From Promicromonospora sukumoe 327MFSha3.1 (GTDB taxonomy: Bacteria; Actinomycetota; Actinomycetes; Actinomycetales; Cellulomonadaceae): DNA of 64,000 nt. The DNA lies in assembly GCF_000385135.1 (NCBI RefSeq), contig NZ_ARQM01000011.1, forward strand, positions 620,001-684,000. Direction: 5' to 3'. The notes under the pieces are model-generated. The model worked only from the letters and a program-made list of their open reading frames with translations. It did no database searches and had not been told where the DNA came from. How positions within the stretch are numbered: the first letter of the stretch is position 1; each line of letters begins with the position of its first letter. This document shows, in pieces, positions 34,275 to 48,206 of the stretch. A program made the translations under genes and the position numbers.

Positions 34275-35291
34275 GTGCTTATCGCACAGCGCCCCACGCT
34301 GACCGAAGAGGTCATCTCGGAGAGCCGTTCCCGCTTCTCCATCGAGCCGCTCGAGCCTGGCTTCGGCTACACGCTCGGCAACTCGATGCGTCGCACGCTG
34401 CTGTCGTCCATCCCGGGCGCAGCCGTCACGTCCATCCGTATCGACAACGTGCTGCACGAGTTCAGCACCGTGTCGGGCGTGAAGGAGGACGTCACCGAGA
34501 TCATCCTCAACATCAAGAACCTCGTCGTCTCCTCGGAGAACGACGAGCCCGTCGTGATGTACCTGCGCAAGCAGGGCGCCGGCACCGTGACCGCCGCGGA
34601 CATCGTTCCGCCGGCGGGGGTCGAGGTCCACAACCCCGACCTGCACATCGCCACCCTCAACGACAAGGGCAAGCTCGAGATCGAGCTGACCGTCGAGCGG
34701 GGCCGTGGGTACGTGTCCGCCGCGCAGAACAAGCAGTTCGACGCGGAGATCGGGCGCATCCCGGTCGACTCGATCTACTCGCCGGTCCTCAAGGTCACGT
34801 ACAAGGTCGAGGCCACCCGAGTCGAGCAGCGCACCGACTTCGACAAGCTCATCGTCGACGTCGAGACCAAGCAGGCGATCACGCCTCGCGACGCGCTCGC
34901 TTCGGCTGGCAAGACCCTGGTCGAGCTGTTCGGCCTGGCACGTGAGCTGAACGTCGAGGCCGAGGGCATCGAGATCGGCCCGTCGCCGACGGACACCGCG
35001 CTGGCCGCGGACCTGGCGCTGCCGATCGAGGAGCTCAACCTCACCATCCGTTCGTACAACTGCCTCAAGCGCGAGGGCATCCACCAGGTGGGCGAGCTCG
35101 TGGCCCGCAGCGAGGCGGACCTGCTCGACATCCGCAACTTCGGTGCGAAGTCGATCACCGAGGTCAAGGAGAAGCTGGCCGAGCTCGGCCTCAGCCTCAA
35201 GGACTCGCCGCTGGACTTCGATCCGGCCGGCGCCTCGTACTTCGAGGGTGGCGACTCCGCGGCCTACGGCAGCGACGAGCAGTCGTACTGA
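34275..35291 (+). CDS. rpoA: DNA-directed RNA polymerase subunit alpha
   Basis: 338 residues from GTG 34275 after GAAAGGA. The N-terminal domain (to about residue 230; [21 protein letters not shown]) dimerises and nucleates the core enzyme. The C-terminal domain ([26 protein letters not shown]) binds UP elements and activators. A short acidic tail follows. rplQ lies 55 bp downstream. Confidence 0.98.
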
Positions 35292-35346
35292 CGTCCCGCA
35301 CCCGGCCTAGGCCGGGTGCGCGGAACCACATTCAAGGAGACAAGCA

Positions 35347-35883
35347 ATGCCTACCCCCACCAAGGGCGCACGGCTCGGCGGTAGCCCGGCTCACGAGCGT
35401 CTGATCCTCGCGAACCTGTCGACCTCGCTCTTCGAGCACGGCCGCATCACGACTACCGAGACCAAGGCCAAGCGCCTGCGTCCGCTGGCCGAGCGTCTGA
35501 TCACGTTCGCGAAGAAGGGCGACCTGTCCGCCCGCCGCCGCGTGCTCACCGTCGTGCGCGACAAGGGCGTGGTCCACACGCTGTTCACCGAGATCGCCCC
35601 GGCCATGGCCGAGCGCAACGGTGGCTACACGCGTATCACCAAGATCGGCACCCGCAAGGGCGACAACGCGCCGATGGCGGTCATCGAGCTCGTCACCGAG
35701 CCCGTGAGCCCCAAGCAGGCCGTCGTCAAGGAGGCCACCAAGGCCACCGAGAAGGCTGCTCCGGTCGAGGACGCGCCCGTCGAGGACGCTCCCGTGGAGG
35801 AGACCCCCGCCGAGGACGTCAAGGACGCCCCCGCGGAGGACGCTCCCGCCGAGGAGACCACGGAGGAGAAGAAGGAGGCCTGA
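35347..35883 (+). CDS. rplQ: 50S ribosomal protein L17 with acidic C-terminal extension
   Basis: 178 residues. The L17 domain ends near residue 125 ([21 protein letters not shown] to VIELVTEP). The last 50 or so residues are an acidic Pro/Ala/Glu tail with repeated PVEDA and PAED units. Such tails occur in actinobacterial L17; their role is unknown to me. A strong terminator follows. Confidence 0.97.
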
Positions 35884-35900
35884 GCCCCCTTCCTCCCTGC

Positions 35901-35948
35901 ACGACGCCGGGCCGCACCTTCCGTACGGAGGGTGCGGCCCGGCGTCGT
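35901..35948 (+). terminator. Terminator after rplQ
   Basis: A perfect 18-bp stem (35901-35918 with 35931-35948) around a 12-nt centre that is itself palindromic (CCGTACGG). Confidence 0.85.
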
Positions 35949-35953
35949 CGTAC

Positions 35954-36003
35954 GACGTGTCAGACGTACAGATCACCAGAGTGACCTGTACGTCTGACAC
36001 GTC
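35954..36003. terminator. Bidirectional hairpin between rplQ and ppgK (repeat copy A)
   Basis: The 23-nt arms 35954-35976 and 35981-36003 pair with one mismatch around CAGA. It overlaps the ppgK stop codon, so it can terminate both convergent genes. A related copy lies at 47007-47052. Confidence 0.75.
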
Positions 36004-36760
36004 AGGACGGCGGGAGGTCCCAGGCGCGCGCGCCGCCCACGAGGGCGGCCGAGTTGGGCACGATGACGACGTCGTCGCCCAGCCTGGCCAGTGCCGACGG
36101 CGTGATGCAGCGGGCGTTGCCGCCGCCGATGTACAGCCGGTCCCAGTGGAAGACCGGCCGCAGCCCGTCGACGACGGTGACCACGCGCCGCGACCACAGC
36201 CCGTCGCCGAGCCGGCGCCGCTCGGGCTCGCCGATGTACTGGTCGTACGTGAGGCTGCGGCGCACCGGGGCGTGCGACCACTCCAGGTGCGGCGCGATGC
36301 GCCCGCCGTGGAACATCGCCGTGCCCAGGCCCGTGCCGAGCGTGATCACGAGCTCCAGGCCCGACGCCGCGACCACACCGGCGCCGTGCACCTCCGCGTC
36401 GTTCAGGACGAGGGCGGGCAGCCCGAGGCGCGCGGCCACCGCCGCCTGCATGTCGAAGCTGCTCCACGCGTCCTGGAGCGCGGGGACCACCCGGGACCGG
36501 GGTCCGGACCTGGTGATGTAGTGCGGCGTGTGCACCACGACGCCGCTGCGGATCATGCCCGGCATGCCGACCGTGACCCGTGCCGCGGCGGGCAGGTCGG
36601 TGGCGATCTTGGCGATCGTGTCGACGAGCAGCTCCGGCGGCAGCGGGTAGGGGGTCGGCACCCGGACGGGGGTCGCGTGGGCCGTGCCCGACGTGTCGAG
36701 GACGGCCGCCTTGATGCCGCCGCCGCCGCAGTCGACCGCGAGCGTGAGGGTGTCTGCCAT
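36002..36760 (-). CDS. ppgK: Polyphosphate glucokinase (ROK family)
   Basis: 252 residues from the ATG at 36760. It phosphorylates glucose using polyphosphate (or ATP) and is characteristic of actinobacteria. The N-terminal phosphate-binding stretch LAVDCGGGGIKAAVLD, the catalytic region LVLNDAEVHGAG and the second phosphate loop ITLGTGLGTA are all visible. The frame continues far upstream antisense to truA, but the start is fixed by a TACAGT box 6 nt before this ATG (leaderless). It is divergent from truA with only 39 bp between them. Confidence 0.9.
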   Translation of the reverse strand: MADTLTLAVDCGGGGIKAAVLDTSGTAHATPVRVPTPYPLPPELLVDTIAKIATDLPAAARVTVGMPGMIRSGVVVHTPHYITRSGPRSRVVPALQDAWSSFDMQAAVAARLGLPALVLNDAEVHGAGVVAASGLELVITLGTGLGTAMFHGGRIAPHLEWSHAPVRRSLTYDQYIGEPERRRLGDGLWSRRVVTVVDGLRPVFHWDRLYIGGGNARCITPSALARLGDDVVIVPNSAALVGGARAWDLPPS

Positions 36761-36766
36761 GACGTC

Positions 36767-36772
36767 ACTGTA
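36767..36772 (-). promoter_or_regulatory. -10 box for leaderless ppgK
   Basis: On the minus strand TACAGT is followed by exactly 6 nt and then the ATG. Confidence 0.6.
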
Positions 36773-36799
36773 CGAACCCCGGCGGGGGCATCGGGGAAG

Positions 36800-37708
36800 A
36801 TGGCTGACGTGAACGACTTCATCCGGGTCCGTCTCGACCTCGCCTACGACGGCACCGACTTCGCGGGCTGGGCTCGTCAGCCGGGCCTGCGCACCGTCGA
36901 GGGGACCCTCCAGGACGGCCTCGCCCAGGTGCTGCGGACCGAGCCGCGCGGCCTCCCGGCGCCCCGGCTCACGGTCGCCGGCCGCACCGACTCCGGCGTC
37001 CACGCCCGGGGCCAGGTGGCGCACGTCGACGTCGACCAGGAGGCCTGGGCCGCGCTGCCGGGCCGGTCCGACCGCTCGCCCGGGGCGTCGCTCGTGACCC
37101 GCCTGGGGGGCGTGCTCCCCGGCGACCTGGTCGTGCGGCGGGCCGCGCCCCCGCCCGCGGGCTTCGACGCGCGCTTCTCCGCGCTGCGCCGCCGCTACAC
37201 CTACCGGATCGCCGACGACGTCGCGCTGCGCGACCCGCTGCGCCGCAGCCACGTGCTGTGGTCCCGCAAGGCGCTGGACGCCGACGCCATGGACGCCGCC
37301 GTCCGCCCGCTGACCGGGGTGCGCGACTTCGCCGCCTACTGCAAGCCGCGGCCCGGGGCGACGACCATCCGGGAGCTGCAGCGCATGGCCTGGGAGCGGC
37401 CCGCCGACGGGCCCGACGCCGGCCTCGTGGTCGCGCACGTCGTGGCCGACGCGTTCTGCCACAACATGGTGCGCGCGCTCGTCGGGGCCTCGATCGCGGT
37501 GGGGGAGGGGCGGCGTCCGGTGAGCTGGCCGGCCGACCTGCTGGCGAGCCGGCGGCGGGAGGCCGGCGTCTTCGTGGTGCCGCCCGAGGGGCTGTGCCTG
37601 GAGGAGATCGCCTACCCGGCGGACGCCGAGCTCGCGGCGCGGGCCGATGCGGTCAAGGCGAAGCGGATGGACGAGGACGTCTGGGACGACCAGGTGGCGG
37701 CGAAGTAG
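36800..37708 (+). CDS. truA: tRNA pseudouridine(38-40) synthase
   Basis: 302 residues from ATG 36800; a GTG at 36809 is an alternative with better-spaced GGGGA. It isomerises U38-U40 in tRNA anticodon arms. The catalytic Asp is D64 in GRTDSGVHARGQ, and RVRLDLAYDGTDFAGWARQ is the N-terminal core. It commonly follows rplQ in actinobacteria; here ppgK is inserted between them on the opposite strand. Confidence 0.95.
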   Translation: MADVNDFIRVRLDLAYDGTDFAGWARQPGLRTVEGTLQDGLAQVLRTEPRGLPAPRLTVAGRTDSGVHARGQVAHVDVDQEAWAALPGRSDRSPGASLVTRLGGVLPGDLVVRRAAPPPAGFDARFSALRRRYTYRIADDVALRDPLRRSHVLWSRKALDADAMDAAVRPLTGVRDFAAYCKPRPGATTIRELQRMAWERPADGPDAGLVVAHVVADAFCHNMVRALVGASIAVGEGRRPVSWPADLLASRRREAGVFVVPPEGLCLEEIAYPADAELAARADAVKAKRMDEDVWDDQVAAK

Positions 37709-37726
37709 AACGCTGGCGAGACAGAA

Positions 37727-37781
37727 CCGCTGGTCGAGCTCGTCGAGACCGCAGCAGGGTCTCGACGAGCTCGACCAGCGG
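37727..37781. repeat. Perfect 24-bp inverted repeat between convergent genes
   Basis: The arms 37727-37750 and 37758-37781 are exact complements around 7 nt, with the core GGTCGAGCTCGTCGAGACC. It lies between the ends of truA and the DUF5709 gene and could terminate both. Its core resembles a short palindrome that recurs in many high-GC genomes. Confidence 0.75.
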
Positions 37782-37836
37782 GTGGTGGCTCTCGACAGCG
37801 GATGTGCTCGCCGGAGCGTTACGTAGGCGAAGGGCC

Positions 37837-38262
37837 TCAGGGCTCCTCGACCCAGTGGACCGCGGCCTCCTCGGCGCTCGCCCCCGCGCCGTCGATGCCC
37901 GCGTCCGTGCCGTACAGGTCGTTCTGCCGGTCGCCGTCCTCGGCGGCATAGCTGCCGGGGTCCGCGTCGGGGTCGGACACGAGCCGGCCGGCACGCGACG
38001 TGTCGGCACGGTCCAGCGGGTCCTCCTGCCAGACGTCCGGCTCCTCCTCGCTGAGGCGCTGGTCCATCGACTCGCCCTGCCGCTCCTCCCACGAGGTCTC
38101 GCCCCAGTGGTTCGAGCGCGGACGGTCCGGCGGGGAGTAGCCCTCGTCGAGGAAGTCCTTGGGACCACGGCTGTACAGGGTGTCCTCGGTCGGGAGCTGG
38201 TCGGTGTCGCCCTCGGCGATACCGTCCGGTCCAGGCATGGTGGCTGGGGTTTCCTCGGTCAT
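37837..38262 (-). CDS. DUF5709 family protein
   Basis: 141 residues, very acidic, no membrane segment. Family features are DTLYSRGPKDFLDEGYSPPDRP, then MDQRLSEEEPDVW and the C-terminal ASAEEAAVHWVEE. The minus-strand start is preceded by TAGGACC, a close Shine-Dalgarno site. The function of this actinobacterial family is unknown. It is divergent from rplM. Confidence 0.8.
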   Translation of the reverse strand: MTEETPATMPGPDGIAEGDTDQLPTEDTLYSRGPKDFLDEGYSPPDRPRSNHWGETSWEERQGESMDQRLSEEEPDVWQEDPLDRADTSRAGRLVSDPDADPGSYAAEDGDRQNDLYGTDAGIDGAGASAEEAAVHWVEEP

Positions 38263-38367
38263 GGTCCTACCGTGACACCAGTTCGGCGCAGACGCCAGAG
38301 TGCCGGGGTCGGAGTGCCGCAGTGGCGAACCTCATGCCCGGGAACGGCACGGTGGTGCGCCTACGCT

Positions 38368-38397
38368 TTGACCCCCGGGGAAACTGCCAGGTACTCT
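38368..38397 (+). promoter_or_regulatory. Sigma70-type promoter of rplM-rpsI
   Basis: TTGACC (38368-38373), an 18-nt spacer and TACTCT (38392-38397). The flanking bases TTTGACCCCC and CAGGTA-TCT match the rpsL promoter. The leader is about 155 nt. Confidence 0.65.
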
Positions 38398-38558
38398 AAT
38401 GAGTCGTTGTGCTTTGTCACGACGTCCTGCGACGGCACCGAGCCCACTCGAGTGCCGACGACCGGCCCGGACGTCATTCTGACCCCCGCGCACAACGACC
38501 TGACTCATCGGGCGCCGCTTCTCGCCCGACGACACCGCAAACGAAAAGGTTACGAACC

Positions 38559-39008
38559 GTGCGTACGTACACCCCCAAGCCCGGCGACGTCCAGCGCGAC
38601 TGGTACGTCGTCGACGCGACCGACGTCGTCCTGGGCCGCCTGGCAAGCCAGGTCGCAACCCTGCTGCGCGGGAAGCACAAGCCGACCTTCGCCCCGCACG
38701 TCGACGGCGGTGACTTCGTCATCGTCATCAACGCGGACAAGGTCGCGCTGAGCGGCAACAAGCGCGAGACCAAGCTGGCTTACCGCCACTCGGGCTACCC
38801 GGGCGGTCTCACGGCCACCCCGTACGGCGAGCTCCTGGACACCAAGCCGGAGCGCGCCATCGAGAAGGCCGTGCGCGGCATGATCCCCAAGACCTCGCTC
38901 GGTCGGACGCAGATGACCCACCTGAAGGTCTACGCAGGCTCTGAGCACCCGCACACGGCGCAGCAGGCCAAGCCGTTCGAGATCACCCAGGTTTCGCAGC
39001 AGGCCTGA
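38559..39008 (+). CDS. rplM: 50S ribosomal protein L13
   Basis: 149 residues from GTG 38559 ([19 protein letters not shown]) with AAAAGG upstream; the longer open frame lies in the leader. L13 is an early 50S assembly protein. The blocks [19 protein letters not shown] and HSGYPGGL are typical. It forms an operon with rpsI 43 bp downstream. Confidence 0.97.
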
Positions 39009-39051
39009 GGCCGCTGCCGGATCGCAACGCGAAGGACGCGAGGACATCACA

Positions 39052-39537
39052 GTGGCCGAGACCACCGTCGAATTCGAGCAGGGCGCCGAGGCGCCCAGCA
39101 ACTACACCACCGAGACTTCCGCGCCGGCGACGCGCGGTTCGTCCATCACCGCCCCGGGCCAGGCCCTCGGGCGCCGCAAGGAGGCCGTGGCGCGCGTGCG
39201 CCTCGTCCCCGGCACCGGCACCTGGAAGATCAACGGCCGCACCCTCGAGGACTACTTCCCGAACAAGGTGCACCAGCAGCTGGTCAACTCGCCGCTGAAC
39301 CTGGTCGAGGTCGAGGGCCGCTTCGACGTCATCGCCCGCATCACGGGTGGCGGCACGTCGGGTCAGGCCGGTGCGCTGCGCCTGGGCATCGCCCGTGCGC
39401 TGAACGCCATCGACGAGGACGCGAACCGCGCCGAGCTCAAGAAGGCCGGCTTCCTCACGCGTGACGACCGCAAGGTCGAGCGCAAGAAGGCCGGTCTCAA
39501 GAAGGCCCGCAAGGCTCCGCAGTACTCCAAGCGCTGA
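39052..39537 (+). CDS. rpsI: 30S ribosomal protein S9
   Basis: 161 residues from GTG 39052. The first 35 residues are a variable Ala/Thr/Glu-rich extension, then comes [17 protein letters not shown]. The C-terminus ends in the conserved YSKR, whose last arginine contacts P-site tRNA. A terminator follows. Confidence 0.97.
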
Positions 39538-39553
39538 TCAGAGCGCTTGGCCG

Positions 39554-39596
39554 GGTGGCCCCGCCGGACAGTGTCGAACTGTTCAGCGGGGCCACC
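39554..39596 (+). terminator. Terminator after rpsI
   Basis: The 11-bp outer arms GGTGGCCCCGC (39554-39564) and GCGGGGCCACC (39586-39596) enclose a GGACAGT/ACTGTTC hairpin. A short T run follows at 39600. Confidence 0.8.
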
Positions 39597-39680
39597 TGCA
39601 TTTGCAGGGGCCAGAGAGCGGAACCGGCACCCGCCGGCGCCCACTACGGTGGGATCGGGAACGAGCTGAGGAGAACGTGC

Positions 39681-41045
39681 ATGGGCAGGCTGTTCGGCAC
39701 CGACGGAGTTCGGGGCCTCGCCAACAAGGACATCACCGCGGAGCTGGCGCTGGAGCTGGGCGCCGCCGCGGCCCGGGTCCTGACCGCGCAGGGTGAGCTG
39801 CTGGGCCCGCGACCGCGGGCCGTCGTCGGGCGGGACACGCGGGCGTCCGGGGAGTTCCTGGCCGGGGCGGTCGCCGCCGGTCTGGCCTCCGCGGGCGTGG
39901 ACGTGGTGATGCTGAACGTGCTGCCGACGCCGGCGCTGGCGTACCTGGTGACGGAGCTGGAGGCCGACCTCGGCGTCATGGTCTCCGCCTCGCACAACCC
40001 GATGCCGGACAACGGCATCAAGTTCTTCGCCCGGGGCGGGCTCAAGCTCGACGACGCCGTCGAGGACGCGATCCAGGCGACGCTCGGGGACGACTGGGAG
40101 CGCCCGACGGGCGCCGACGTCGGCCGCATCCGCACCGACGGCCAGGCGGCCGCCGAGCGCTACGTGCGGCACCTGACCGACAGCGTCGGCACCACCCCGG
40201 ACCACCGGCCGCTCGAGGGCCTGCGCATCGCGCTGGACTGCGCGAACGGCGCGGCGAGCGAGGTCGGCCCGGAGGCGCTGCGCGCCGCGGGCGCGGACGT
40301 CGTGGTGATGAACGCCAGCCCCGACGGCCGGAACATCAACGAGAAGTGCGGCTCGACGCACCCGGAGCAGCTCCAGGCCGTCGTCGTGGCCTCGGAGGCC
40401 GACTTCGGCGTCGCGTTCGACGGCGACGCCGACCGCTGCCTCGCCGTCGACCACACCGGCAAGATCGTGGACGGCGACCAGATCCTCGGCATCCTGGCCA
40501 CCGCGCTCAAGGAGGAGGGCCGCCTGCCGGGCGACACCCTCGTGGTCACGGTGATGAGCAACCTCGGACTCATCCTGGCGATGCGGGAGCGGGGCATCAC
40601 GACGGTGCAGACCGCCGTCGGCGACCGGTACGTGCTGGAGGAGATGCGCGCCAAGGGCTACGGCCTGGGCGGCGAGCAGTCCGGCCACATCATCCTGGCC
40701 GAGCACGCCACCACCGGCGACGGCGTCCTGTCGGCGCTCCACCTCGCTGCCCGGGTCAAGGCCTCGGGCAAGCGCCTGGGTGATCTTGCGGGTGAGATCG
40801 AGCGCCTGCCGCAGACGCTCGTCAACGTCCGCGGCGTGGACAAGTCGCGTGCCGGTACGGACGAGGGCGTGCAGTCCGCGGTGGCCGACGCGACCGCGCG
40901 GCTCGGCGACACCGGCCGGGTGCTCCTGCGGCAGTCCGGTACGGAACCGCTGGTCCGCGTCATGGTCGAGGCCCCGGCGCAGGACGAGGCGGACAAGGTG
41001 GCCGAGGACCTCGCCGCCGTCGTGCGGGAGCGGCTCGCGCTCTGA
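39681..41045 (+). CDS. glmM: Phosphoglucosamine mutase
   Basis: 454 residues from ATG 39681, GAGGAGA 6 nt upstream. It converts glucosamine-6-phosphate to glucosamine-1-phosphate for UDP-GlcNAc and peptidoglycan. The phosphoserine is S104 ([12 protein letters not shown]), the magnesium loop is D247-D249-D251 (DGDADR), and the phosphate-binding C-terminus is [17 protein letters not shown] box at 39645 may give it its own promoter after the rpsI terminator. glmS, the preceding step of the pathway, lies 2 kb downstream. Confidence 0.97.
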
Positions 41046-41085
41046 CGTGAACGGCCCGTGAAACCTTGGGAAGCGGGGTTGTCCC

Positions 41086-41119
41086 AGGGGGTCCCCTGAT
41101 GCGTTTCAGGGGGCCCCCT
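41086..41119 (+). terminator. Terminator after glmM
   Basis: A 13-bp stem (41086-41098 with 41107-41119, one T-G pair) and an 8-nt loop. A TACTCT -10 candidate for the next gene follows at 41124-41129. Confidence 0.7.
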
Positions 41120-41174
41120 TGCGTACTCTGGCAGTAGGCACTATGAGGTGCCCCTCTACGCCCCCTGGGCGCCG

Positions 41175-41193
41175 CCCTGAGCTTGTCGAAGGG
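41175..41193. repeat. Short palindromic repeat CCCTGAGCTTGTCGAAGGG
   Basis: A 19-bp imperfect palindrome in the leader of the DedA gene. From general familiarity this sequence recurs in many unrelated high-GC genomes. Its centre resembles the core of the repeat at 37727. Confidence 0.6.
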
Positions 41194-41223
41194 TGGTGCC
41201 CGGCCGAGACTTCCCGAGGTCCC

Positions 41224-41973
41224 GTGCTCGAACTCATCTCCACCGTCCTGAGCGCCACCGAGGCCTGGATCCTCGCGATGGCCGCCTCACCGTGGATCTA
41301 CCCGGCCATGTTCGCCTTCGCGACGATCGACGGGTTCTTCCCGCCGCTGCCGAGCGAGTCCGTGGTCATCACGCTCACCGTGTCGGCGCACAGCACCGGC
41401 ACGCCCTGGATGTGGCTGGTGCTGATCGCGGCGGCGGCCGGTGCCTGGGTGGGGGACCAGATCGCCTACCAGATCGGCAAGATGATCGGCACGGACCGCG
41501 TTCCGTTCCTGCGCTCGGCCCGGGGCCGCCGGGCCGTGGACTGGGCGGAGCGGGCGCTGACCCGCCGCGGCGCGTCCTTCATCCTCGCGGCGCGCTACGT
41601 GCCGATCGGCCGCGTGGCCGTGAACATGACGGCGGGCGCCGTCGGCTACCCGCGGCGCCGGTTCATGTTCATCGCCGCGATCGCGGCGGTCATGTGGGCC
41701 CTGTACTCCGCGGGCATCGGCCTGGTCGCGGCCCAGTGGCTCGGGCACGAGCCGCTGCTGGCGATCGTGATCGGCGTCGTCCTGGGCGTCGCGATGGGCT
41801 TCATCGTGGACAAGGTCGTGGGCTGGTTCTCCCACCGGCACCTCGACGAGGACGCGGACGGCGAGGCCGGCCCGGACGGCGAGAAGGTCGCCGTCCCGGC
41901 GGGCGCCACGGAGATGGTCCGCGAGTACGTCCACCGGGTCGACGACGCGGACAGGTCCGCGAACGAGCGCTGA
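41224..41973 (+). CDS. DedA family membrane protein
   Basis: 249 residues from GTG 41224, with GAGG just upstream. An upstream ATG at 41143 would add 27 residues encoded across the palindromic repeat and is unlikely. It has four or five membrane segments. The family signatures are FFPPLPSESVVI near the N-terminus and GRVAVNMTAGAVGYPRRRF later. DedA proteins act in membrane homeostasis and lipid-carrier flipping; the substrate here is unknown. The C-terminus is an acidic tail. Confidence 0.88.
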   Translation: MLELISTVLSATEAWILAMAASPWIYPAMFAFATIDGFFPPLPSESVVITLTVSAHSTGTPWMWLVLIAAAAGAWVGDQIAYQIGKMIGTDRVPFLRSARGRRAVDWAERALTRRGASFILAARYVPIGRVAVNMTAGAVGYPRRRFMFIAAIAAVMWALYSAGIGLVAAQWLGHEPLLAIVIGVVLGVAMGFIVDKVVGWFSHRHLDEDADGEAGPDGEKVAVPAGATEMVREYVHRVDDADRSANER

Positions 41974-41977
41974 CCCG

Positions 41978-42973
41978 CTAGAGCTTGCGCAGCCGGACCC
42001 GCTGCACCGCGTGGTCCGAGCCCTTGGTCAGCACCAGCGTGGCGCGGCCGCGCGTCGGCAGGATGTTCTTCTCCAGGTTCGGCGCGTTGATGGACTCCCA
42101 GATCGAGAGCGCCTTGTCCGTGGCCTCCTGGTCGGAGAGCGACGCGTACCGCTTGAAGTAGGAGTCCGGCTTGGTGAACGCCGTGCGGCGCAGCTCCAGG
42201 AACCGTTCCACGTACCACTGCCGGATGTTCCGGGTGCGGGCGTCCACGTAGATCGAGAAGTCGAAGAAGTCGCTCACCGCGACGGTCGACTCGTCGACGG
42301 AGGACGGCCGCGCCGGCTGCAGCACGTTCAGGCCCTCGACGATGAGCACGTCGGGCTTGCGGACGACGACCTCCAGCTCGGGCACGATGTCGTAGATCAC
42401 GTGCGAGTACACCGGCGCGCGCACCTCGGTCTGCCCCGCCTTGATGCGGGACAGGAACCGGATGAGGGCCCGCCGGTCGTACGACTCCGGGAAGCCCTTG
42501 CGCTCCATCAGGCCGCGCCGTTCGAGCTCCGCGTTCGGGTACAGGAACCCGTCGGTCGTGATGAGCTCGACGCGCGGCGTCTCGGGCCAGCGGGCGAGCA
42601 TCTCGCGCAGCACGCGCGCCGTCGTCGACTTGCCGACGGCCACCGAGCCGGCCACGCCGATCACGTAGGGGGTGCGGGGCGGGTCCTCGTGCAGAAAGGT
42701 CGAGGTCGCGTCGTGCAGGCCGCCGGTGGCCTGCACGTAGAGGTTGAGCAGTCGCGACAGAGGGCGGTAGATCGCGTCGACCTCGGCGAGGTCGATCGGG
42801 TCACCGAGTCCGCGCAGGCGCTCGACGTCGTCGTCGGTCAGCGGCAGCGGGGTGGACGCCGACAGGCGGCTCCAGGCCGCCCTGTCGAGATCCACGTAGG
42901 GCGAGGACGGGGCGAGGGCGAGCAGGTGCTCCCCGAGGTCCGTCGTCGAGAACTGTGAAACCACCTGCAGCAT
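41978..42973 (-). CDS. coaA: Type I pantothenate kinase
   Basis: 331 residues. It phosphorylates pantothenate, the first step to coenzyme A. The P-loop GSVAVGKS is at residues 109-116, followed by [10 protein letters not shown] and [19 protein letters not shown] and [11 protein letters not shown] are also family features. It is convergent with the DedA gene (4 bp apart) and divergent from glmS. Confidence 0.96.
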
Positions 42974-43092
42974 TGTGCCCCACCCGCGGCACGGATCGGC
43001 GTCGTCCGAGGCCGGAGGGGTCCTGGAGGTGATGCCGAGGGTGAGATACGGGCCCTGTGAGCCCAGTCATGGGGGCGCACCCGAACGCTCGT

Positions 43093-43098
43093 TAGACT
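43093..43098 (+). promoter_or_regulatory. -10 box for leaderless glmS
   Basis: TAGACT lies 7 nt before the ATG, predicting a transcript that begins at or next to the start codon. Confidence 0.6.
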
Positions 43099-43105
43099 CG
43101 CCCGC

Positions 43106-45007
43106 ATGTGTGGGATCGTCGGTTACACCGGAACTGCTGCGTCTATCGCGGACGGCATCGCCTCGGGCGCCGCCTCGCCGTCTGGCACGCCCCTTGACGT
43201 GGCCATCGAGGGGCTGCGCCGCCTCGAGTACCGCGGCTACGACTCGGCGGGCGTGGCGCTCGTCGCGCCCGGCCTGGACGGGGTCGCGTGGGCCAAGAAG
43301 TCGGGCAAGCTCGCCAACCTGATCGAGGTGCTCGACCAGGACCCGCTCCCGGAGGCGACCGCCGCGATCGGCCACACCCGCTGGGCGACGCACGGCGGCC
43401 CCACCGACGCGAACGCCCACCCGCACCTGGCCGACGGCGACCGCCTTGCCGTCATCCACAACGGCATCGTCGAGAACTTCGCGCAGCTCAAGGCCGAGCT
43501 GCTGGCCGACGGCGTGGTGTTCCGCTCCGAGACCGACACCGAGGTGGCCGCCCACCTCGTGGCCAAGGCGTACCGCGAGACGGGCGACCTGACCGCCGCC
43601 ATGACCGCCGCCGCCGGCCGCCTGGAAGGCACCTTCACGCTGCTCGCCGTGCACGCCGACGCCCCCGAGACCGTGGTGGGCGCCCGCCACGACTCCCCGC
43701 TGGTGGTGGGGCTCGGCGAGGGCGAGAACTTCCTGGGCTCCGACGTCGCCGCGTTCATCGCGCACACCAAGGAGGCCCTGGAGCTCGGCCAGGACCAGGT
43801 CGTCACCATCACGCCCACGTCGGTCTCGGTGACGGACTTCGACGGCAAGCCCGCCGAGGCCAAGCGCTACACCGTGGACTGGGACGCCGCTGCCGCCGAG
43901 AAGGGCGGCTTCGACTCCTTCATGGACAAGGAGATCCACGACCAGCCGCAGGCCGTGGCCGACACGCTGCTCGGCCGGACCGACGCCGCGGGCGCGCTCG
44001 TGCTGGACGACCTGCGCATCGACGAGTCGATCCTGCGCGCGGTGAACAAGATCATCGTGATCGCGTGCGGTACCGCCGCCTACTCCGGGCACGTGGCGAA
44101 GTACGCGATCGAGCACTGGTGCCGCATCCCCGTCGAGGTCGAGCTGGCGCACGAGTTCCGGTACCGCGACCCGATCGTCGACGAGCGCACCCTGGTGGTC
44201 GCCGTGACGCAGTCCGGCGAGACCATGGACACCCTGATGGCCGTGCGGCACGCGCGCGAGCAGGGCGCCAAGGTGATCTCGATCGTGAACACCCACGGCT
44301 CCACGATCCCGCGCGAGTCCGACGCCGTGCTCTACACGCACGCCGGCCCCGAGATCGCCGTCGCCTCCACCAAGGCGTTCCTGGCGCAGATCACCGCCGC
44401 CTACGTGCTGGGCCTGTACCTCGCCCAGCTCCGCGGCAACAAGTTCCCCGACGAGATCGCAACGCTGCTCGACGAGCTGCGGGCCATGCCGCGCAAGATC
44501 CAGACCGTCATCGAGCGCGGCGAGTACGTGCGCGCGACCGCCCGGTCCATGGAGAAGTCGGACAAGGTGCTGTTCCTGGGGCGGCACGTCGGCTTCCCGG
44601 TGGCCCTGGAGGGTGCGCTCAAGCTCAAGGAGCTCGCGTACATCCACGCCGAGGGCTTCGCCGCCGGCGAGCTCAAGCACGGCCCGATCGCGCTGATCGA
44701 CGAGGGCCAGCCCGTGTTCGTCGTGGTGCCCTCGCCGCGCGGGCGCGACTCCCTGCACTCGAAGGTCATCTCCAACATCCAGGAGATCCGGGCGCGCGGC
44801 GCCCGCACCCTCGTGATCGCGGAGGACGGCGACGACGAGGTGCGCAAGTACGCCGACGAGATCTTCTGGATCCCGCAGGCGCCCACGCTGCTCCAGCCGC
44901 TGCTGGCCGTGGTGCCGCTGCAGATCTTCGCGATGGCGCTCGCCACCGCGAAGGGCCTGGACGTGGACCAGCCGCGCAACCTCGCCAAGTCGGTCACGGT
45001 CGAGTAA
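43106..45007 (+). CDS. glmS: Glutamine-fructose-6-phosphate aminotransferase
   Basis: 633 residues starting MCGIVGYTG; the Cys after Met is the glutaminase nucleophile. The order is class II glutaminase domain (about 2-230), then two SIS sugar-isomerase domains (CGTAAYSGHVAKYAIE, TQSGETMDTLM; second from about 480), ending AKSVTVE. It makes glucosamine-6-phosphate. An insertion of about 15 residues (IADGIASGAASPSGT) follows the nucleophile loop. There is no leader, so the glmS ribozyme of Bacillus is absent. Confidence 0.97.
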   Translation: MCGIVGYTGTAASIADGIASGAASPSGTPLDVAIEGLRRLEYRGYDSAGVALVAPGLDGVAWAKKSGKLANLIEVLDQDPLPEATAAIGHTRWATHGGPTDANAHPHLADGDRLAVIHNGIVENFAQLKAELLADGVVFRSETDTEVAAHLVAKAYRETGDLTAAMTAAAGRLEGTFTLLAVHADAPETVVGARHDSPLVVGLGEGENFLGSDVAAFIAHTKEALELGQDQVVTITPTSVSVTDFDGKPAEAKRYTVDWDAAAAEKGGFDSFMDKEIHDQPQAVADTLLGRTDAAGALVLDDLRIDESILRAVNKIIVIACGTAAYSGHVAKYAIEHWCRIPVEVELAHEFRYRDPIVDERTLVVAVTQSGETMDTLMAVRHAREQGAKVISIVNTHGSTIPRESDAVLYTHAGPEIAVASTKAFLAQITAAYVLGLYLAQLRGNKFPDEIATLLDELRAMPRKIQTVIERGEYVRATARSMEKSDKVLFLGRHVGFPVALEGALKLKELAYIHAEGFAAGELKHGPIALIDEGQPVFVVVPSPRGRDSLHSKVISNIQEIRARGARTLVIAEDGDDEVRKYADEIFWIPQAPTLLQPLLAVVPLQIFAMALATAKGLDVDQPRNLAKSVTVE

Positions 45008-45040
45008 GGACGCCGGCCCGGCTGTGGCACGCTCGTCGGC

Positions 45041-45439
45041 GTGGAACTTCAGAAGCTCTCCGACGAGGTCGAGATCATCAGCCGGGCCTACGCCCGCATC
45101 CACGGGCTGGAACGCACCGACGACTGGCTCCTGCTCAAGCTCCACGAGGAGATCGGGGAGCTCACCCAGGCGTTCCTCAACCTTTCCGGCCGCTCGCGCG
45201 ACCGGGGCCTGACCGACGACGAGGTGCGGGACGCGTTCCGGGGCGAGGTCGCGGACGCCCTGGGGCAGCTGCTGCTCGTGGCCCGGCGGTTCGACGTGGA
45301 CCTGGCCGAGGAGCTGGACCGCAAGTGGTTCCGCTGGCAGCACCTGGTCCGGCCGGAGGACACGGCGGGGATCCGGGACGCTGGTACTGATGCCGGGGGT
45401 GCCGGTGTCGCTGGTCCCGGTGTCGGTGGTCCCGTCTAG
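45041..45439 (+). CDS. MazG-like nucleotide pyrophosphohydrolase
   Basis: 132 residues from GTG 45041. The all-alpha NTP-PPase metal motif is present: EEIGE, followed by EVADALGQLL. Such enzymes hydrolyse non-canonical or excess NTPs. The last 30 residues are a Gly/Ala/Val repeat-like tail. A CACGCT box 7 nt before the GTG (A2 and T6 conserved) suggests another leaderless gene. Substrate unknown. Confidence 0.8.
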   Translation: MELQKLSDEVEIISRAYARIHGLERTDDWLLLKLHEEIGELTQAFLNLSGRSRDRGLTDDEVRDAFRGEVADALGQLLLVARRFDVDLAEELDRKWFRWQHLVRPEDTAGIRDAGTDAGGAGVAGPGVGGPV

Positions 45440-45486
45440 GGTCTGATCCGGGCGGGCCGCCGTGGCCTCCCAGGAGAGGAGCGCCG

Positions 45487-46317
45487 GTGGCGTACGTAGA
45501 GGTCGACGGGGTCCAGGTGCACTACGTGGAGCACGGGCCGCCGTCCGGCGGCGGGGTGCGTACGGCGGTGCTGGTCCACGGGTTCCCGGTGGACCACCGG
45601 CTCATGACCGGCGCGTTCGAGCCGGTCTTCGCGGGGCGTGCGGGCTGGCGTCGCGTGTACGTGGACCTGCCGGGAATGGGCCGCACGACGGCGCCCGCCG
45701 TGGCGAGCACCGACGACGTCTTCCGGATCCTGCGCGGCGCCGTCCGGGCCCTGGTGCCCGACGGCGGCTACGTGGTGGTCGGGCAGTCGTACGGCGGGTA
45801 TCTCGCGCGGGGGCTGGCCGCCGCCGACCCCGACCGCGTGGCCGGAATGGCCGCCGTCGTGACGGTGGTCGACCCGCGCCACGAGCTGCGGCACGTCCCG
45901 GAGCGCCAGGTGCTGGTGCGGGAGCCCGCGCTGCTGACCCGGGTGGGCGCCGAGGCGCTCGACGCGGAGGAGGTGCTGGTGGTGCAGACCGAGGAGACCT
46001 GGGAGCGGGCGCGCCGGGACGTCGACCCGGGGCTCGCCGCCGCCGACCCCGAGGCGGTCGCGCGGATCCAGGCGAGCTACTCCGGGACGTTCCCCGTGGA
46101 ACCGGCGTCGTTCGACAAGCCGGTCCTGATCCTCGTGGGCCGCCAGGACTCGACGACGGGCTACCGCGACGCATGGGACCTGGTGGAGCGTTACCCGCGG
46201 GCGACCTTCGCCGTGCTGGACCGCGCGGGACACGCCCTGGACATCGAGCAGCGCGGACTGTTCGAGGCGCTCGTGGGGGAGTGGCTGGACCGCGTCGAGG
46301 AGGCGACCCCGGCCTGA
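45487..46317 (+). CDS. Alpha/beta hydrolase
   Basis: 276 residues from GTG 45487 with GGAGAGGAG upstream. The oxyanion region HGFPVDHR, nucleophile elbow GQSYGG (Ser), acid near VGRQDSTTG and the catalytic His in AGHALDIEQ give a complete triad. It is cytoplasmic (no signal peptide). The substrate cannot be read from the sequence. Confidence 0.88.
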   Translation: MAYVEVDGVQVHYVEHGPPSGGGVRTAVLVHGFPVDHRLMTGAFEPVFAGRAGWRRVYVDLPGMGRTTAPAVASTDDVFRILRGAVRALVPDGGYVVVGQSYGGYLARGLAAADPDRVAGMAAVVTVVDPRHELRHVPERQVLVREPALLTRVGAEALDAEEVLVVQTEETWERARRDVDPGLAAADPEAVARIQASYSGTFPVEPASFDKPVLILVGRQDSTTGYRDAWDLVERYPRATFAVLDRAGHALDIEQRGLFEALVGEWLDRVEEATPA

Positions 46318-46342
46318 GCCGGGGCGCCTCGGGCGACGGCGA

Positions 46343-46453
46343 TCAGCTCGACACCGCGACGAACACCAGCAGCGTGACGATCGCGGCGATCACGACGCCG
46401 AAGACGGCGACCATGATCACGGGGAAGGGGAGCTTGTCGTCGTCCTCCGGCAT
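46343..46453 (-). CDS. 36-residue single-pass membrane peptide
   Basis: The minus-strand ATG at 46453 opens a 36-codon frame, MPEDDDKLPFPVIMVAVFG followed by a hydrophobic run ending FVAVSS. An AGGAGG site stands 5 nt before the ATG. One membrane helix (about residues 11-33) follows an acidic N-terminus. It is antisense to nothing and fills the gap between the hydrolase and acpS. No family recognised; coding potential rests on the strong ribosome site and clean topology. Confidence 0.7.
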   Translation of the reverse strand: MPEDDDKLPFPVIMVAVFGVVIAAIVTLLVFVAVSS

Positions 46454-46471
46454 GGCAACCTCCTACGCGCG

Positions 46472-46511
46472 AAAGGTGGCGACCTGCCGGTACGGAGCAG
46501 GTGCCACCTTT
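46472..46511. repeat. Long inverted repeat between the membrane peptide gene and acpS
   Basis: The arms AAAGGTGGC-G-ACCTGC (46472-46487) and GCAGGT-GCCACCTTT (46497-46511) pair with one bulged base. It could be a leader hairpin of the minus-strand peptide gene or a terminator for the plus strand (TTTACCTTT follows). Confidence 0.55.
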
Positions 46512-46639
46512 ACCTTTGCATTACGAGGGTATGGTGCCTCAAAACGGGCATCCCTCGCAAGACCCCGGTGTGAAGCGGCTGACCTGCGGTTTTGTCCGCA
46601 CGGAGCGCTCCGGGGCCGGGGCGCGGCGGGCGCGGGATC

Positions 46640-46645
46640 TAGGCT
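46640..46645 (+). promoter_or_regulatory. -10 box for leaderless acpS
   Basis: TAGGCT is followed by exactly 6 nt and then the ATG at 46652. Confidence 0.6.
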
Positions 46646-46651
46646 GTGCCC

Positions 46652-47002
46652 ATGATCATCGGCACCGGCATCGACGTGGTCGACGTGGACCGGTTCATGG
46701 AGACCCTCGACCGCACGCCCCGGCTGCGGGAAAAGCTGTTCACCGAGGCCGAGCGGGAGCTGCCGGCGGCGTCCCTGGCCGCCCGGTTCGCCGCGAAGGA
46801 GGCCATCGCCAAGTCGCTCGGCGCCCCGGGCAACCTGCGGTGGCACGACGTCACGGTGCACCGCACGGTGGGCGGCCCGCCCCGGATCGACGCGAGCGGC
46901 ACCGTCGCCGCCCGCGCCGCCGAGCTCGGGGTGCGCACGTGGCACATCACGATCTCGCACGACGCCGGGATCGCGTCGGCGATGGTCATCGCTGAGGGCT
47001 GA
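46652..47002 (+). CDS. acpS: Holo-[acyl-carrier-protein] synthase
   Basis: 116 residues starting [15 protein letters not shown]. It transfers 4'-phosphopantetheine from CoA to acyl carrier proteins. The metal ligands are D8 (GIDVV) and E50 ([11 protein letters not shown]), and [15 protein letters not shown] is the C-terminal block. A GTG two codons earlier touches the -10 box and is excluded. It is convergent with the LLM gene. Confidence 0.95.
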
Positions 47003-47006
47003 TCCT

Positions 47007-47052
47007 GCTGTCAGACCCACAGTTCACCCGGGTGATCCGTGGGTCTGACAGC
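47007..47052. terminator. Bidirectional hairpin between acpS and the LLM gene (repeat copy B)
   Basis: The outer arms GCTGTCAGACCCAC (47007-47020) and its complement (47039-47052) pair perfectly, with a short inner stem. It matches copy A at 35954 in sequence, structure and convergent setting. Confidence 0.75.
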
Positions 47053-47057
47053 TTGGG

Positions 47058-48107
47058 TTACTGGAGCTCCGGGATGACCTGCTTCTCGAAGAGCTCCAGG
47101 CCGCTGGTGTCGTAGGCCGCCTCCTGGAAGTACGTGATCGCGTACTCCAGGCCGCGCGCGCCCATGCCCTGCAGCCGCTCGACGATCTGCTCCGGCGTGC
47201 CGACCAGGAGCCCGCCCCGCCAGTTCGTGATCTCCCGGTCCGCCTTGCCGGGCACCGACTTGCGCAGGTGCGCCTCGATCCAGTCCAGCCGCTCGGCGAC
47301 CTCGGCGTCGTTCTCGCCGATCACCACGTTGTAGTTCGTGGACCGCGTGATCTCGCCGAAGTCCCGCCCCACGTCCTTGCAGTGCGCCTCGAGCACGCCC
47401 GACTTGTGGGTGAAGCCCTCGGGCGACCCGTCGAAGTTGGTGTACTGCGCGTGCTGCGCGGCGATGCGCAGCGTCTTCTGCTCGCCGCCGCCCGCGATCC
47501 ACAGGGGGATGGACGGGACCTCGGCGCCGCCGTCGCCCACCGGGAGCTGCTGCAGCGGCTGCGGGTAGCAGAGCGCGCCGTCGACCTGGTAGCGCTTGCC
47601 CTCGAAGGTGCCCGAGGAACCGGTGCGCCACATGCTCGACATGATCTGCACGCCCTCGTCGAGCGCGCGCAGGCGCTCGCCCGCCGTGGGGAAGCCGTAG
47701 CCGTAGGCCCGCCACTCGTGCTCGTACCAGCCGGCCCCGATGCCCATCTCGATGCGCCCGCCGGAGATCGTGTCGATCGTCGAGGCGACCTTCGCCAGGT
47801 AGGTCGGCTCCCGGTAGGCCATGCAGGTGCACATCTGGCCCAGGCGGATGCGCTGGGTCGCCGCCGCGAACGCGGCCATCAGGGACCACGCCTCGTGCGT
47901 GGCCTCGGTCGAGGGCTCTGGCGTGGTGTGGAAGTGGTCGTACACCCAGGCCGACTCCCAGGCGAACTCGCCGCCGGGGACGGCCTCGCCCGCGGCCTGG
48001 TTCTCGGCGCGGTGGACGAGGGAGAGCATGGTGGCCCACTGGTCGGCGGGCGCGACGTCGACCAGGTCGAAGCGCCAGCCCTGCGGGATGAAGAGTCCGA
48101 ATCGCAT
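47058..48107 (-). CDS. LLM class flavin/F420-dependent oxidoreductase
   Basis: 349 residues, a luciferase-like TIM barrel. It begins MRFGLFIPQGWRFDLV. RIRLGQMCTCMAYREP, GRIEMGIGAGWYEHEW and IPLWIAGGGEQKTLRIAA are family blocks that form the cofactor site. The actinobacterial members of this group mostly use F420; cofactor and substrate here are inferred only to family level. Confidence 0.9.
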   Translation of the reverse strand: MRFGLFIPQGWRFDLVDVAPADQWATMLSLVHRAENQAAGEAVPGGEFAWESAWVYDHFHTTPEPSTEATHEAWSLMAAFAAATQRIRLGQMCTCMAYREPTYLAKVASTIDTISGGRIEMGIGAGWYEHEWRAYGYGFPTAGERLRALDEGVQIMSSMWRTGSSGTFEGKRYQVDGALCYPQPLQQLPVGDGGAEVPSIPLWIAGGGEQKTLRIAAQHAQYTNFDGSPEGFTHKSGVLEAHCKDVGRDFGEITRSTNYNVVIGENDAEVAERLDWIEAHLRKSVPGKADREITNWRGGLLVGTPEQIVERLQGMGARGLEYAITYFQEAAYDTSGLELFEKQVIPELQ

Positions 48108-48113
48108 GGCCCG

Positions 48114-48119
48114 ACCCTA
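48114..48119 (-). promoter_or_regulatory. -10 box for the leaderless LLM gene
   Basis: On the minus strand TAGGGT is followed by 6 nt and then the ATG at 48107. Confidence 0.6.
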
Positions 48120-48206
48120 TGCCGACGACGTTCGACCAGGGGAGGGGTGGTCGAAATTGTCGGGTTTCGGTACCTCCGGTGCTGGTCGAGGCGGCAGGAT
48201 GGGGCT

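Follow-up and report, generated by a model that had tools for sequence, protein, structure and literature searches.

Two related hairpins between convergent genes

The window analyzed here is a stretch of 64,000 nt from Promicromonospora sukumoe 327MFSha3.1 (contig NZ_ARQM01000011.1, positions 620,001 to 684,000), and the subject of this work is a 42-nt palindromic element that it contains twice. Copy 1 (35958..35999, no strand assigned, its stem reaching 35954-36003) lies between the ribosomal protein L17 gene (35347..35883, + strand, PF01196) and a ROK-family gene (36002..36760, - strand, PF00480), whose stop codon starts 2 nt past the element. Copy 2 (47009..47050, again without strand, its stem reaching 47007-47052) begins 6 nt past the stop codon of a holo-acyl carrier protein (holo-ACP) synthase (acpS)-type gene (46646..47002, + strand, PF01648) and is separated by 7 nt from the end of a luciferase-like monooxygenase gene (47058..48107, - strand, PF00296). 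Genes were called with a home-made codon model and not with a standard gene finder. A sequence-only reading of the window had reported two hairpins of one family, each between convergent genes, whose stem partners change together. We found both hairpins at the places reported, and both flanking gene pairs are indeed convergent; the two cores share 33 of 42 positions, and the pairs G35966-C35991 and T35967-A35990 of copy 1 correspond to C47017-G47042 and C47018-G47041 in copy 2.

Both elements are predicted to fold stably (-39.4 kcal/mol, z -10.2 for copy 1; -34.6 kcal/mol, z -6.5 for copy 2), and each fold is better than those of 200/200 shuffles. Because a separate and unrelated GC-rich hairpin (35901..35948, no strand assigned, -52 kcal/mol) occupies the region behind the L17 gene, copy 1 is the second hairpin in the L17/ROK gap; an inverted repeat matching this resident hairpin was recognized by eye at the L17 gene end in 10 of 13 species. 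The element does not correspond to a known RNA family, in that an Rfam scan of the window gave no family at gathering score and only sub-threshold matches near copy 2.

The paired motif TGTCAGAC...GTCTGACA occurs twice in the window, against 0.00 occurrences expected, and the two hairpins contain every exact TGTCAGAC octamer found there, four in number. Neisseria DNA-uptake sequences pair up as terminators, and inverted pairs at gene ends are what an uptake motif of this kind would produce. Such a motif should, however, also be in excess as single sites. The window contains fewer octamers with at most one mismatch than its shuffles do (24 versus 49.9), its exact octamers are all paired (4/4), and 474,707 bases of the P. 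sukumoe genome, taken mostly from around copies of the element, yielded just three half-sites that were not recognized as paired, each of them with a decayed second arm. We therefore ruled out a DNA-uptake motif, to which we assign next to no likelihood.

A family of 103 copies in the P. sukumoe genome

The 6.25 Mb genome (G000) was searched with the pattern TGTCAGAC-N(10-40)-GTCTGACA, requiring exact ends. This gave 103 copies, compared with none in the reversed control, and bears out the proposal of a repeated hairpin family; neither a lack of further copies nor a scatter within genes, the two outcomes that the sequence-only reading had held to speak against it, was seen. Positions were analyzed for 89 of the 103 copies, namely the first listed places plus the best-scoring of at least 150 matches. 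The remaining 14, some of them less than 450 bases from the end of a locus, were left out of the position count. The core is 42 nt long in 88 of these 89 copies and 43 nt in the other, and 15 to 21 of its 21 positions are paired. In layout, the element is framed by constant 8-bp ends (TGTCAGAC...GTCTGACA), between which the inner stem is lineage-specific. The arm triplets at positions 9-11 are drawn from a small set and differ between the two arms in 16 of the 89 copies. Most of the G000 copies read are single. Two copies (L004 and L027) are nested: a further pair resembling TGTCAGAC/GTCTGACA begins some 19 nt beyond the core and lengthens the stem to about 80 nt. This nesting is retained in their G006 orthologues (L149 and L133).

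Most copies are located close behind stop codons

Among the 89 copies, 47 are located between tandem genes, 38 between convergent genes, two between divergent genes and two inside called genes, so that the first two classes account for 85 of the 89. Distances to the nearest stop codon, measured for 87 copies, have a median of 11 nt and do not exceed 30 nt in 81 of them; for random intergenic positions the share within 30 nt is 15%. The background for these comparisons is 144 kb from three genomes, in which one ribosomal cluster is overrepresented, and contains 148 gene pairs (23 convergent, 23 divergent and 102 tandem). Convergent gaps make up about 3% of its usable intergenic positions and 23 of its 148 gene pairs but hold 38 of the 89 copies, whereas divergent gaps make up 21% of the usable positions and hold two. 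The expectation that copies would cluster at convergent ends thus held for gene ends, which are favored, but not for convergence as such, since tandem copies outnumber convergent ones. The family does not fit the classical intrinsic terminator, a GC-rich hairpin with a U-tract, and because some copies sit inside genes it cannot consist simply of terminators.

Stem pairing is kept while paired bases change

In an alignment of 37 copies, 93.1% of the stem cells are paired, compared with 88.4% in shuffles, and 45 cells are changed on both sides, compared with 18.4; neither value was reached by any of 500 shuffles. Two other measures gave weaker signals: eight pairs are changed on both sides, versus 5.6 (reached by 14/500 shuffles), and a further measure of covariation was reached by 19/500. 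A similar result was obtained at a single orthologous place, site F, where the helix is kept in an alignment of 10 of the 13 species (G001 and G003 have no such hairpin there, and G008 is too diverged) with 12 doubly changed cells versus 4.2 in shuffles (0/500), the weaker measures of pairs and types being reached by 33/500 and 159/500 shuffles.

The sequence-only reading had taken covariation to imply selection on an RNA or cruciform structure. Paired changes do recur, both across the 37 copies and at site F, but they do not by themselves prove selection, because template switching can also perfect palindromes. Nor is structure the sole constraint. Differences between G000 and G006 fall at core positions 9-11, 13, 15, 18, 20 and 21, are rare at 12 and 16, and are absent at 14, 17 and 19; since some stem bases hardly change, constraint acts on the primary sequence in addition to the compensated stem.

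Retention and absence at orthologous gene ends

Orthologous gene ends were compared for 36 of 38 sites, two having no neighboring gene end; the G000 copies were picked by their exact ends. In G006 an exact-end copy is present at 29 of the 36 sites, four sites lack an orthologue, and the other three have no exact-end copy (in one of them an arm is shortened by a 2-base deletion, and the other two have none). In G007 (P. sp. MEB111) exact-end copies are present at 11 of the 36 sites, 22 are not exact and three lack an orthologue. Several of these 22 were judged by eye to be diverged hairpins with changes in both arms, for example TGTCGGAC with GTCCGAC. Inner bases are identical at 22.31 of 26 positions in orthologous pairs, compared with 19.65 of 26 in non-orthologous pairs. 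In the reverse test, from G006 to G000, the family was found at six of 12 sites (five exact and one nearly exact, the latter adjoining an orthologue of only 57% identity) and was missing at six, one of which bears a hairpin of the second family described below; three of the 12 sites were also part of the forward test. At site F a hairpin is present even in the two species that have no exact copies genome-wide: that of G004 is a diverged relative of the family (30/42 to the consensus strings), and that of G008 is too diverged to assign (21/42). The ends of the element are themselves altered at site F in other species.

These results bear on a reading in which the elements are purely selfish palindromes that land anywhere, are purged from genes and promoters and persist behind genes merely because such spots are safe, the paired changes being template-switch corrections. 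The existence of intragenic copies would agree with this, as would the small set of triplets at positions 9-11 and their inequality between arms in 16/89 copies, as expected of conversion intermediates, and the lack of a strong hairpin at 24 of 34 family-free gene ends (see below). Against it, 29 of the 32 G006 orthologues keep exact ends although the stretch from stop codon to hairpin can hardly be aligned by eye, and 38 of 89 copies occupy the roughly 3% of usable positions that lie in convergent gaps. We consider the selfish account unlikely.

Copies inside protein-coding genes

All 12 copies found to overlap called genes share one reading frame, which encodes V/L/M-SD...SD. Eight of them, in the ClpB, HrpA and Mfd genes of two Cellulomonas genomes (G054 and G017), were compared with aligned solved homologues, and all eight fall in segments that have no counterpart there. 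In ClpB of G054 the copy encodes residues 530-544, within a 25-residue gap relative to 6oax_C. One copy in HrpA of G054 encodes residues 209-223, within an extra segment at 196-230. HrpA of G017 contains five copies, at residues 235-249 (extra segment 217-260), 488-502 and 512-526 (483-530), and 683-697 and 707-721 (674-801); its paired copies are spaced by 72 nt, a multiple of three. In Mfd of G017 the copy is located at residues 402-416, within extra segment 389-451. Because all eight belong to in-frame segments that the solved homologues lack, these copies look inserted, and they are the clearest sign that the unit is an insert.

A different arrangement was observed at site E (L023, 2409-2450, and its orthologues), where the hairpin lies behind a gene that we take from its sequence to be of the cysteine-desulfurase type, and where the SD frame runs into the downstream protein, presumably TusA-type in view of its RGLRCPLP motif. 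As the SD frame reads straight into this protein, one arm of the hairpin is probably coding or covers the start of the TusA-type gene.

Distribution across genomes

The family was matched in 16 of 99 genomes, G000 included, and in 5 of 54 genera, its own included. The 13 genomes of Promicromonospora (among others G007, G009, P. panici; G010, P. kroppenstedtii; and G011, P. thailandica) hold 198, 103, 82, 38, 30, 20, 7, 5, 5, 4, 1, 0 and 0 copies. Other carriers are G054 (matching Cellulomonas sp. PhB143), G059 (matching Actinotalea soli) and G017, probably C. fimi strain SB, a strain that carries a copy identical to that of G017. Sister families in Cellulomonas, Microlunatus and others have the same ends and 42-nt length, both of which were imposed by the search pattern, with different inner stems. 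A wider scan gave at least 99 stretches. Readings from 61 of 99 include the actinobacterial carriers Microlunatus speluncae, Isoptericola and Quadrisphaera, metagenome-assembled genomes of Nocardioidaceae, Frankiaceae and Propionibacteriales, and 20 non-actinobacterial matches. Seventeen of these 20 are likely due to chance, because they pair at no more than 7 of 13 inner positions. A stricter pattern, which recovers only part of the G000 copies (19 forward and 27 reverse), had no match in a phylum sample of 395 other genomes. Of the 10 G054 loci fetched, 7 hold paired copies at a spacing of 60-61 nt, as do some G017 loci; most intergenic pairs have this spacing, and the intergenic copies of L062 are spaced by 95 and 72 nt.

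If the sites were host-made terminators or processing sites, never mobile and with a sequence fixed by a sequence-specific factor, then the position bias towards gene ends, the sequence-specific constraint at old orthologous copies and the failure to find a mobilizing enzyme would be accounted for. The in-frame copies within ClpB, HrpA and Mfd, the close pairs and the patchy spread (15/98 relatives, 5/54 genera and, with the stricter pattern, 0/395 genomes of the phylum) fit this poorly, and we hold it to be distinctly improbable. Fixed ends and a 42-nt length kept in 88/89 copies could also be expected if the palindromes were dispersed chromosomal binding sites required by a nucleoid or segregation protein. 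Against this, placement tracks stop codons, copy number spans 0 to 198 in a single genus, and the ends are altered in other species at site F; a binding site of this type appears very improbable.

Search for a mobilizing enzyme

A transposase of the type associated with repetitive extragenic palindromic (REP) elements, the REP-associated tyrosine transposase (RAYT), was rejected as mover, since none of the 14 genomes searched contains a Y1 (RAYT-type) transposase of PF01797; as a control, the PF01797 search gave matches in 5 of 14 named genomes. DUF222/HNH genes were rejected too. They were matched in all 16 genomes searched regardless of copy number (25 DUF222-type matches in G000 and 2-31 in the other 15), G004 having 31 of them yet no exact-end copy, and TGTCAGAC/GTCTGACA octamers were present in 2 of the 30 DUF222 loci fetched, as single ones only. 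Half-sites were listed for six low-copy species to look for a larger parent element whose ends would be unpaired, and none was recognized: 20 of 25 readings, from 20 fetched stretches, are intact or decayed hairpins, and in five (L424, L428 at 685, L429, L430 and L433) no clear second arm was seen by eye.

Relation to known repeats and proposed role

According to Di Nocera et al. 2013 (PMC3733652), REP elements of the GTAG and CGTC super-families are short high-copy palindromes located mainly between tandem and convergent genes and near stop codons, form dimers, and are found sometimes within repair and helicase genes; CGTC families have no dedicated transposase, and tagged elements are reported mainly from gamma- and alpha-Proteobacteria. 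The string 'actino' is absent from the main text of that paper. The present family is likewise a short, high-copy, mostly extragenic palindrome 3' of genes (103 copies; 85/89), and it has in common with REPs the proximity to stop codons, the copies in helicase and repair genes and, through the G054 and G017 pairs, dimers of neighboring units. It differs from them in being actinobacterial, in combining invariant 8-bp ends with a lineage-dependent inner stem, and in its flanks, which are symmetric ACG/CGT and mostly paired (the two positions flanking the core pair in 32/37 copies each), whereas REPs carry an unpaired GTAG or CGTC tag. Among the 103 copies, GACN precedes the core at just 19 ends in the forward and 27 in the reverse direction and is thus no constant tag. 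As such a tag is lacking and no RAYT-type gene was found (0/14 genomes), we do not file the family under the GTAG/CGTC super-families; judged from its sequence, it nevertheless works like a REP. Rickettsia palindromic elements (RPE) are read in frame inside proteins and apparently tolerated, as stated in the same paper (PMC3733652). The eight ClpB, HrpA and Mfd copies resemble them in being in-frame palindromes that form extra residues of conserved proteins, a likeness of description, whereas the family as a whole is mostly extragenic and belongs to another phylum.

For the copies behind genes, the nearest precedent is the class of 3' ends mapped experimentally in Streptomyces clavuligerus: PMC8269248 gives 353 of 535 highly structured 3' ends as lacking a U-tract, and longer stems at ends used in both directions. 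A strong stem, a short loop, no U-tract and, as proposed for our family, two-way use are common to both; that class is not one repeated sequence. Since structured ends without U-tracts are common in S. clavuligerus, a U-less 3'-end role has a precedent. By description, the family also resembles TRIT, which is reportedly the mycobacterial terminator motif of RNIE and a repeated actinobacterial 3'-end hairpin; the window gave no Rfam match at gathering score. TRIT is mentioned in PMC3526491. Among the matches listed in a literature search that mostly did not extend to subscription journals, there was no description of the family in Actinobacteria, and none was found in passages of PMC4681348 and PMC1590033.

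Taken together, we favor, with a probability of roughly 0.6, the reading that the family is a REP-like dispersed palindrome of Actinobacteria that would be kept mainly as a putative two-way, U-less 3'-end hairpin. Dispersal, close pairs, in-frame segments and patchy distribution argue for mobility; position, orthologous retention and stem compensation argue for the two-way role. The elements may be spread by an as yet hypothetical trans-acting enzyme that recognizes the constant ends. Copies landing just behind genes would be tolerated and then kept, we propose, because transcripts of both strands can fold into a strong hairpin; this would provide a putative two-way 3' end, by halting the polymerase in the absence of a U-tract or else by barring the way to 3'-to-5' exonucleases.

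Several observations weigh against this reading. No mobilizing enzyme was found, PF01797 genes being absent from all 14 genomes searched for them, and no polarized insertion was seen; presence in one species and absence in another could reflect loss. The alignments of ClpB, HrpA and Mfd show extra residues and not an insertion event, such linkers vary otherwise too, and the shared frame is less surprising because a TGA in the arm closes one of the three frames. As to the 3'-end role, none of the 89 copies has TTTT in the adjoining 20 nt of either flank, and no consensus terminator was found in 35000-48200, compared with 3.0 in shuffles. Two of the 89 copies are divergent, two are intragenic and one tandem copy lies 622 nt from a stop codon. 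Inner bases 12, 14, 17 and 19 are fixed or nearly so beside changing neighbors, which exceeds the need of a plain hairpin. Finally, 34 family-free combinations of site and species at five sites (site B was excluded for its resident L17 hairpin) hold a strong inverted repeat, defined as a score of at least 12 with 12 being the highest single-base shuffle, in 10 cases and none in 24. With just 10 of 34 such places holding one, not every gene end of this kind needs a hairpin.

A broader proposal, which we make tentatively and consider somewhat doubtful, is that the sister families form a superfamily of mobile actinobacterial palindromes, (often GACN)TGTCAGAC-N26-GTCTGACA, whose ends would be read by a non-RAYT mover while the inner stem drifts by lineage, and which would seed two-way U-less transcript ends and occasional in-frame SD...SD inserts in core proteins. 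A RAYT-less family with fixed ends in several actinobacterial lineages offers its 16-base signature as a handle for finding the mover. Individual gene ends can also be compared between genomes in which they carry the family hairpin, another hairpin or none, and this amounts to a natural experiment on how transcript ends are formed in GC-rich bacteria that lack U-tracts.

Other hairpin and repeat families

A second dispersed hairpin family, GTCGAGCNNGTCGAGACC...GGTCTCGACNNGCTCGAC, is represented in the window at 37727-37781, between converging tRNA-pseudouridine-synthase and DUF5709 genes. It has 45 copies in the G000 genome, compared with none in the control, and its three core strings had no match in the literature searched. 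At one G000 gene end (L044) a hairpin of this second family is located where G006 has a TGTCAGAC hairpin. In P. panici (G009; L194, L206 and L321, sites B, C and D), three of the six gene ends compared carry a hairpin family with GTTGTGAGCGTGATC / GTTGTGGGCGTGATCGTTGC and their complements. A hairpin type with CCGTTGAGTGC / CACCGTTGAGTGC and complement is present in G007 (L157 and L179) behind two genes that bear a TGTCAGAC hairpin in G000. Lastly, a longer repeat, GCGCAGCGCAGGGTGAGGGCCGAGGAACGAGGCA and variants, was observed behind several genes of G000, G006 and G007 (L135, L144, L145 and L363).

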